Of a stretch of 64,000 bases of DNA, positions 17,447-43,117 are shown one piece after another. Numbering within the stretch: position 1 is the first letter of the stretch; the number at the start of each line of letters is the position of its first letter. A program made the translations under genes and the position numbers. Source of the DNA: Neelides folsomi (lineage: Eukaryota; Arthropoda; Collembola; Neelipleona; Neelidae); NCBI GenBank assembly GCA_034687125.1, contig JAQGBZ010000104.1:62001-126000 (forward strand), written 5' to 3'. The notes beneath the pieces were generated by a model, which did no database searches, was not told the origin of the DNA, and saw only the letters and a program-made list of their open reading frames with translations.

Positions 17447-19873
<2,427 letters not shown>

Positions 19874-41284: not shown

Positions 41285-43117
41285 TCATCCAACAATTCTA
41301 CTCATCATTCTATGAATTGCCATCACTTGACTTCCAGTTTTCGTTGCTGTAAACAAAATTGTCGTAACATGATTAGTAAAACTTTAATTAATTGATTTGT
41401 AATTAATTAATTCACTAATCAAGATTGATAAGTGATAAATATAAGATAAAACTTATCAGGATTTAATTATCCAATACTGTAATCAGTAATTCATTATAAA
41501 TATTCTATCAACTTGTAATTTATCGCAAATTACCATAAATAGCATTATCTGTAAGATAGCCATACCTAAAAATTATTAAAAAAATTAACCAACGAACCAT
41601 TGTTGAGTAATTAATTAAATTACCAATTCCAGCAACATAACAAATTAAACAAGGTGCTTGTTGCTTGTGGAAAAAGAACAATTATGTTGTTTGTTTCAGC
41701 TGCTTCCAAATACCCAGTTTTTGTTGCATAAATCGTAGAGACATCAGACCTTTTTCAATTGTTTAAGTTTCAAGTTTGAAGGTTGAATTGTTAAAGTTAA
41801 AGAAATCCTTCATGATCAAACAAATCCAACCTGCATTGGGAACATCCATGAAGAGCTATATGGAGTTTACACGTAGTTGTCCCGCTTTTGCATCCAGAAG
41901 GAATATAAATGTATCCCGTGTTGTCCATACTTGATGCTACAGGAAGTGTAAAATGGAAGAATTCTCCTTGATCGAATTCGTAAAAATCTCCTGGAAGATT
42001 TCCTGTCGCTGGAGCATTCAAGTTCCCTCCATATAAATGATTGAGCATCTCAAAGGCCCCTTTCTGTGTTCAAAACTTCAAATAACAATTCTCAATTTAT
42101 GAAAAACAGGGCACGTACATAATTGCAATTGTTGATATATTGAGTTCCTGTAGATTTGGCTGAACAAGCTGAACCATAGTCGTCTGTGATCTTTATTAAT
42201 CAAAAAGTGTTTTAATTAAATTATTTTATTTTAACAAAATTGAATGATTTTCCTAACTTGTCCATGCTCTGCAGGATAGTTGAAGACTGTCTTTGGGTGG
42301 ACTCCCAATTTAAGATACATCTCTTCGACATTTTGACCCGATTCTTAAAAATCACAAAGGGAATTACTTAATGATGTTCATAAATATTAATTATTTAACT
42401 CACTAAATTTGACAACAGAATCATTTAGTCCTTGGAAAATGTAAACTCTGTCTCCGTTTAAGTTTGACAAATTGTCAATCACCCCAGCTTTGGAATATAT
42501 ACGAGCTTCATTAAGGAGAAATTCAACATTCGTCAATCCAGGATTTTCCATGCAGATTGCTGTGGCTGGAATAGCGCCACCGTTTCCGCACAAGTATGGA
42601 ACTGCAACATTATTTGATTACAAATTACAATTAGCAGTTTTGTAAATGAGGATTAAGAAGACAATATTTTATCCAAGGGAGAACCTCCTGCAAAGATTCC
42701 AGCCCCTGCTATTTGGCTTGAATGAGCAATGTGAAATTGCATGGCCATTGCAGCCCTGGAAAAGTTTAAGTTTATTGAATCAAATGAAACAAAAAATGGT
42801 CAATAACACTACATCTATAAATGATAATTTTTATTCATATTCTACCCAGAAGAAATTCCAGAGACGGTGATGGAATTTGCGTCAACATTTTGCTTGGCTA
42901 AAATATTAGAACTATTAGTATATAAAATTTATAGATAATGTTATTGTTGTTATTAAGGTATGCTGCATGCTCTGTTTTAACACTTGAATTGTATTAGGTA
43001 AAATTAAAATTAAAAAATTAATTTATTGATTTAAATAGCTTTACTTAATTTAATTCGTTGTGTTTCTGCTCCAAAGACCAACGGAAGTAAAAATATTAAA
43101 GCACAAACTAAATTCAT
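41285..43117 (-). CDS. secreted PHB-depolymerase-like esterase (10 exons, 334 residues)
   Basis: Minus-strand exons: 43117-43045, 42897-42846, 42755-42685, 42601-42404, 42343-42258, 42190-42119, 42063-41831, 41749-41624, 41565-41534, 41346-41285. They total 1005 bases and all phases agree. The protein matches poly(3-hydroxybutyrate) depolymerase-type alpha/beta hydrolases, which cut PHB, a bacterial carbon-storage polyester, and related short-chain polyesters. The N-terminus MNLVCALIFLLPLVFGAET is a clear signal peptide, so the enzyme is probably secreted. Likely catalytic residues are Ser40 in the lipase box GISSG, Asp126 in GLNDSVV and His158 in AEHGQ; their spacing resembles the fungal Penicillium enzyme as I remember it. 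Family blocks NNCNY, LHIALHGCSQ, NNIIVLFPQA and YATKTG follow in order. Nine introns show it is a settled animal gene, not contamination. A gut role in digesting bacteria is inference; activity on another ester is possible. Confidence 0.88.

Follow-up and report, generated by a model that had tools for sequence, protein, structure and literature searches.

The window gene and its surroundings

The window, by which we mean the whole 64,000-base stretch of Neelides folsomi DNA analysed here, contains at 43117-41285 on the minus strand a gene of ten exons which, when rebuilt exon by exon, encodes a protein of 334 residues. Its nine introns are all of the GT-AG type and measure 55-187 bases each; the phase is continuous across the exons, the number of internal stops is 0, and GC3 is 0.32. 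The exons, as given by the rebuild and, where catalytic or oxyanion residues are named, by an alignment to the fungal depolymerase chain PDB 2d80, are the following:

43045..43117, minus strand: exon 1, start codon and signal-peptide-like leader (residues 1-24), donor GTAAAG
42846..42897, minus strand: exon 2, predicted nucleophile Ser40 of GISSG at 42853-42851
42685..42755, minus strand: exon 3
42404..42601, minus strand: exon 4, predicted catalytic Asp126 at 42422-42420
42258..42343, minus strand: exon 5, predicted catalytic His158 at 42266-42264
42119..42190, minus strand: exon 6
41831..42063, minus strand: exon 7, oxyanion HGC motif, Cys258 at 41844-41842
41624..41749, minus strand: exon 8, CWNW block
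41534..41565, minus strand: exon 9
41285..41346, minus strand: exon 10, with the stop codon

The exon borders were reproduced by a purpose-written spliced aligner, which amounts to a consistency check only, since the same protein served as input; independent support for the model comes from a paralogue on contig C316, which repeats the positions and phases of all nine introns. The N-terminal hydrophobic leader was judged by eye from the translation. The original prediction had described ten in-phase exons without a break, together with a leader, a GISSG box, Asp126 and His158, and all of these were recovered.

The same window holds a polyubiquitin gene (18282-19873, with several head-to-tail repeats), a TACO1-like gene, a cohesin loading factor and a helicase, the last matched just under the cut-off; Rfam and tRNA scans of the 64,000 bases found nothing. 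Elsewhere in the assembly, contig C742 is, with 15,157 bases, about as long as a complete mitochondrial genome and carries COX1 by Pfam match, flanked by ND2- and COX2-like reading frames recognized by eye. A COX1 tree of 30 rows places C742 within Collembola (100/100 against three insect rows) and in none of the springtail orders. The first match to this COX1 is unnamed (93%) and the closest named one among the matches listed reaches 82%; within the best 120, springtails or more broadly labelled clusters fill ranks 2 to 37 (79-82%), after which come beetles and other insects at 79% or less, interspersed with a few springtails.

A predicted single-domain type 2 depolymerase

The assignment to the PHB-depolymerase family, originally proposed from the letters of the sequence, withstood closer inspection. 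NF050059 (e_dPHAscl_type2), an NCBIfam model of the hypoth_equivalog kind for type 2 extracellular short-chain-length PHA depolymerases, matches the window protein over its full length at 313.1 bits against a cut-off of 280, and the best protein match has an E value of 7e-101. The gathering score of Pfam PF10503 (Esterase_PHB) was missed by the window protein (19.3 bits against 23), perhaps because that model is better suited to type 1 enzymes, in which the elements come in a different order. Chain 2d80, the PHB depolymerase of Penicillium (Talaromyces) funiculosum, matches residues 27-325 (E 9e-38) and brings Ser40, Asp126, His158 and Cys258 into register with its Ser39, Asp121, His155 and Cys250, the key residues of the fungal enzyme being named in PMC5445757; for all four, the index within the 2d80 chain plus 20 gives the published residue number. 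The nucleophile is, by this alignment, the first serine of GISSG, Ser40, since the S39A mutant chain 2d81 aligns there as GLASG. In the type 2 order, as described in PMC2666664, the triad is followed by an oxyanion residue on its C-terminal side, and the same paper reports a hydrophobic x1 in the Gx1Sx2G box of every type 2 enzyme of the PHA depolymerase database. The window protein has this order, with a lipase-box Ser-Asp-His triad and the oxyanion Cys C-terminal to it, and its x1 is the hydrophobic Ile39.

The window protein ends with the catalytic domain, a separate linker and substrate-binding domain being absent. It shows a full-length, above-cut-off likeness to the bacterial extracellular enzymes of NF050059 (for example, those of Variovorax, Massilia and Photobacterium), but these usually carry a separate substrate-binding domain, and some of the bacterial-type matches among those listed have FN3 domains. 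Although usual in type 2 enzymes, the linker and substrate-binding domain are not required, and the fungal chain 2d80 (318 residues, aligned over 6-306) also seems to consist of a single domain, with the same order of type 2 elements; the fungal gene nevertheless belongs to a different setting from the window gene, which is animal, intron-rich and part of a multigene family. Folsomia P0016 and four unnamed matches possess a chitin-binding CBM14 domain (PF01607), whereas the window protein does not; the CBM14-bearing depolymerases are P0013, P0015, P0016, P0018 and P0029, and in P0016 the domain looks C-terminal. The AlphaFold model of the close homologue P0001, which is 51% identical to the window protein and 29-30% identical to the P. 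funiculosum enzyme, has a pLDDT of 95.3, and its top PDB matches are 2d81 and 2d80 (TM 0.84-0.90).

A family of at least 11 genes

When the genome (75.1 Mb in 840 contigs) was searched with the window protein, 31 exon matches were obtained on nine contigs; a search with PF10503 found nothing. Spliced models yielded ten paralogues, namely one each on C316, C20, C259, C710, C578 and C234 and two each on C287 and C448, so that the genome holds at least 11 family members on nine contigs, the window gene included. Queries with one member each of groups b and c, introduced below, added no further loci in this genome, and the locus counts are lower bounds. The paralogue models are uncertain in their first exons, the model of the second C448 copy (C448b) starts with spurious mini-exons, and that of the first C287 copy (C287a), with 16 exons, may be over-split. 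The two C287 copies keep the triad and are neighbours on the same strand, in a stretch of about 4.5 kb, and the two C448 copies, both of group b, are in divergent orientation.

Four intron positions are common to all 11 models and two more to 10 of the 11. In our alignment, C234 is the one model without the fifth shared position, and the sixth is confined to 10 models because the C578 model, whose contig ends about 210 bases beyond it, lacks the last exon. The sharing of intron positions across the models points to descent of all 11 genes, by duplication, from one intron-bearing gene. Between the window gene and its C316 paralogue dN/dS is 0.18, at a dS (1.7) that is near saturation.

A springtail branch without the triad

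Six of the 11 genes (C448a, C448b, C20, C259, C710 and C578), which we call group b, form one clade in a tree of 113 rows. Five of them, used as queries, yielded 33 proteins, among which the strong named matches are all from springtails, namely Allacma, of the order Symphypleona, and Orchesella and Folsomia, of the order Entomobryomorpha; the named sequences from outside the springtails, those of a brittle star and a Nitrospirae bacterium, match much more weakly and have retained the triad. Residues were counted in 27 group b sequences, the six own models and P0241-P0261. P0262 (Asp replaced by N and His by N, Ser region unmatched) and the fragments P0263, P0267 and P0270-P0272 stand outside the counts, P0264 and P0273 were taken as group c, and P0265, P0266, P0268 and P0269, all with Ser, Asp and His, are listed apart. 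The nucleophile Ser is kept in 27/27, whereas the triad Asp is replaced by N, S or G and the His by L, Q, N, T, Y or F, each in every counted sequence (27/27). In 24 of the 27, Thr takes the place of the second Trp of CWDW, and a new His occurs in 26 of the 27 at the position of window-protein residue 269; among the counted sequences, no Asp or Glu has newly become almost invariant in group b alone.

Group b and the window gene share introns, the Ser elbow and, judging from a model, the fold: the predicted structure of the Allacma protein P0241 has a pLDDT of 91.9 and resembles 2d81 with TM 0.80-0.85. NF050059 matches all five group b proteins scanned (best E 4e-63), although the cut-off is not reached (213.5 against 280 bits, the score of one member). 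Among the six own copies, pairwise dN/dS is 0.06-0.19 (13 of the 15 pairs were computable), the least saturated pair, C259 and C710, having a dN/dS of 0.116 at a dS of 0.77. Some group b proteins are called 'Poly(3-hydroxyalkanoate) depolymerase C' or 'Carboxylic ester hydrolase' in public records, and that of Orchesella cincta, P0250, is recorded as 'Long-chain fatty acid transport protein 6', probably a misnomer.

Group c comprises C234, Folsomia P0264 and Allacma P0273, in which Asp and His are kept (the Ser region of P0264 is unaligned). Because group c retains these residues and C234 and P0264 share a branch with group b (100/100 in a tree of 76 rows), a single loss of Asp and His on the group b stem appears to be the simplest history. 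Group b would then be either a conserved family of pseudoenzymes or an enzyme with a relocated base, for which the His at the residue-269 position is the sole candidate seen. Quite probably, springtails possess a family under purifying selection that has kept the nucleophile elbow without the Asp and His, is made up of pseudoenzymes or of enzymes rewired around the new His, and dates back at least to the split between Symphypleona and Entomobryomorpha. Its genes would have duplicated further inside individual lineages, as with the six copies of this genome, which form a single clade. As pseudoenzymes, these proteins might, for instance, bind polyester granules or the surfaces of bacteria, or regulate the active enzymes.

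Relatives in other organisms and the origin of the family

Named homologues of the window protein, among the best 120 of 239 matches, come from springtails, Bradysia, Daphnia, shrimp, molluscs, annelids, echinoderms and bdelloid rotifers, and then from bacteria. Springtail, mollusc, crustacean, annelid and echinoderm proteins named 'poly(3-hydroxybutyrate) depolymerase-like' belong to the same family, keep the triad and are, among the matches listed, 41-56% identical to the window protein. Related sequences, placed by the original prediction in scattered invertebrates, occur in many of these animals and several already bear the name, and the window gene, taken as an isolated case, is for that reason ordinary. 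Asp and His are invariant in 124/124 counted relatives (four own models and P0001-P0120, the best 120 of 239; the Ser region is missing in 4 of the 124). Some homologues run uninterrupted along unnamed contigs of about 1.1-1.4 kb, which resemble transcripts and suggest expression of relatives. Work on PHA depolymerases in marine invertebrates exists; a literature search covering few subscription papers and no bioRxiv preprints turned up no publication in which springtails or other animals encode such enzymes, and none describing the triad-less branch.

In GTDB genomes, the 80 bacterial loci kept are 35-43% identical to the window protein. The 113-row tree, whose rows were chosen by hand and include 28 of these 80 loci, sets bacterial and fungal rows against the animals across one branch (SH-aLRT 99), but in a careful tree of 76 of the same rows this split has a support of only 79/97, so that it is probable rather than certain. 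In the latter tree, annelid, rotifer and echinoderm rows adjoin the bacteria without resolution and the basal animal branches are poorly supported. The window gene pairs there with C316 (100/99), inside a clade of 15 rows (100/97) that includes springtail and Bradysia sequences and six unnamed rows; it lies among animals rather than next to a potential donor from bacteria or fungi, and its animal neighbours, far from being ordinary animal esterases, are themselves type 2 PHB-depolymerase-like. A single springtail-wide clade of the active genes with groups b and c is absent from the best tree, in which groups b and c sit on a long branch, but it is not rejected by the AU test (p 0.29), so that the place where these two groups attach to the animal tree is tentative.

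The Bradysia coprophila sequences P0004 and P0012 nest among springtail sequences in both trees, joining Orchesella P0005 and the unnamed P0003 at 98/83 in the 76-row tree, and a constraint holding seven springtail genes together without Bradysia was marginally rejected (AU p 0.046). Gene transfer between springtails and gnats is possible from this placement; for another gene, transfers of this kind have been suggested (PMC13389597), and Bradysia is among the closest matches reported for a springtail enzyme regarded as an acquisition (PMC9460274).

As to the ultimate source, the family could go back to one old transfer from bacteria into an early animal, with many later losses, and not to a gene inherited from before the animals. 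The separation of animals from bacteria and the fungus in the 113-row tree and the patchy spread among the named animal matches listed speak for such a transfer, as against an unrooted tree that gives no direction and the lack of any named sponge, cnidarian or protist among the best 120 of 239 matches; we regard it as possible, at somewhat less than an even chance. It concerns origin alone and is compatible with the function proposed below.

Proposed function and its implications

The window gene carries the predicted parts for ester hydrolysis, the triad and the oxyanion residues. The explanation that we favour, with a probability of about 0.62, is that it encodes a springtail single-domain type 2 short-chain-length PHA depolymerase that digests microbial PHA and belongs to an old intron-bearing family with a triad-less branch. 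The protein would be secreted into the springtail gut, where Ser40-His158-Asp126 would cleave the ester bonds of poly(3-hydroxybutyrate), with the chains lying in a hydrophobic cleft like that of the Penicillium enzyme, and the polyester stored by bacteria of the soil and gut would thereby become available to the springtail. Duplication of the ancestral gene would have produced the 11 genes, one old branch having lost Asp and His and been kept for another role.

Enzymes of the PHB-depolymerase fold may act on other esters, and the chief competing view is that the protein is an animal esterase of this fold whose real substrate is a lipid, a plant or fungal polyester or a small ester, the PHB name having been inherited by annotation. 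This would agree with the identity of about 30% or less between P0001 and the proven fungal enzyme and with the clear diversification of the springtail family, but the protein passes a hypoth_equivalog model and matches a solved PHB depolymerase over its full length, with no other esterase at a comparable score, and we hold another substrate to be unlikely, albeit a serious contender. Far less probable is that the gene reached this springtail recently by horizontal transfer, with a bacterium or fungus as donor. The family is known best from those organisms, and foreign genes are many in springtail genomes (809 reported in Folsomia in PMC5490193), yet the gene has nine introns, four of them common to all ten paralogues, close homologues exist in molluscs, crustaceans and echinoderms, and a tree joining the window-gene clade with bacteria apart from the remaining rows was rejected (AU p 0.002). 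The rejection of that grouping argues for an old animal gene family, and the long residence in this genome inferred in the original prediction agrees with it and with the introns shared among paralogues. Contamination or an assembly artefact, which the fragmentation into 840 contigs might invite, has a negligible probability in view of the spliceosomal introns, the animal-type neighbours (polyubiquitin, TACO1 and the cohesin loading factor) and the paralogues on eight other contigs.

On its own, the window gene is of modest interest, the part worth following being the springtail expansion with its conserved triad-less branch. The depolymerase reading suggests that soil animals can break down, with enzymes of their own, one of the main carbon stores of bacteria as well as a class of bioplastics, and the presence of active-looking and triad-less branches in one genome constitutes a natural experiment on a polyester hydrolase changing its role.
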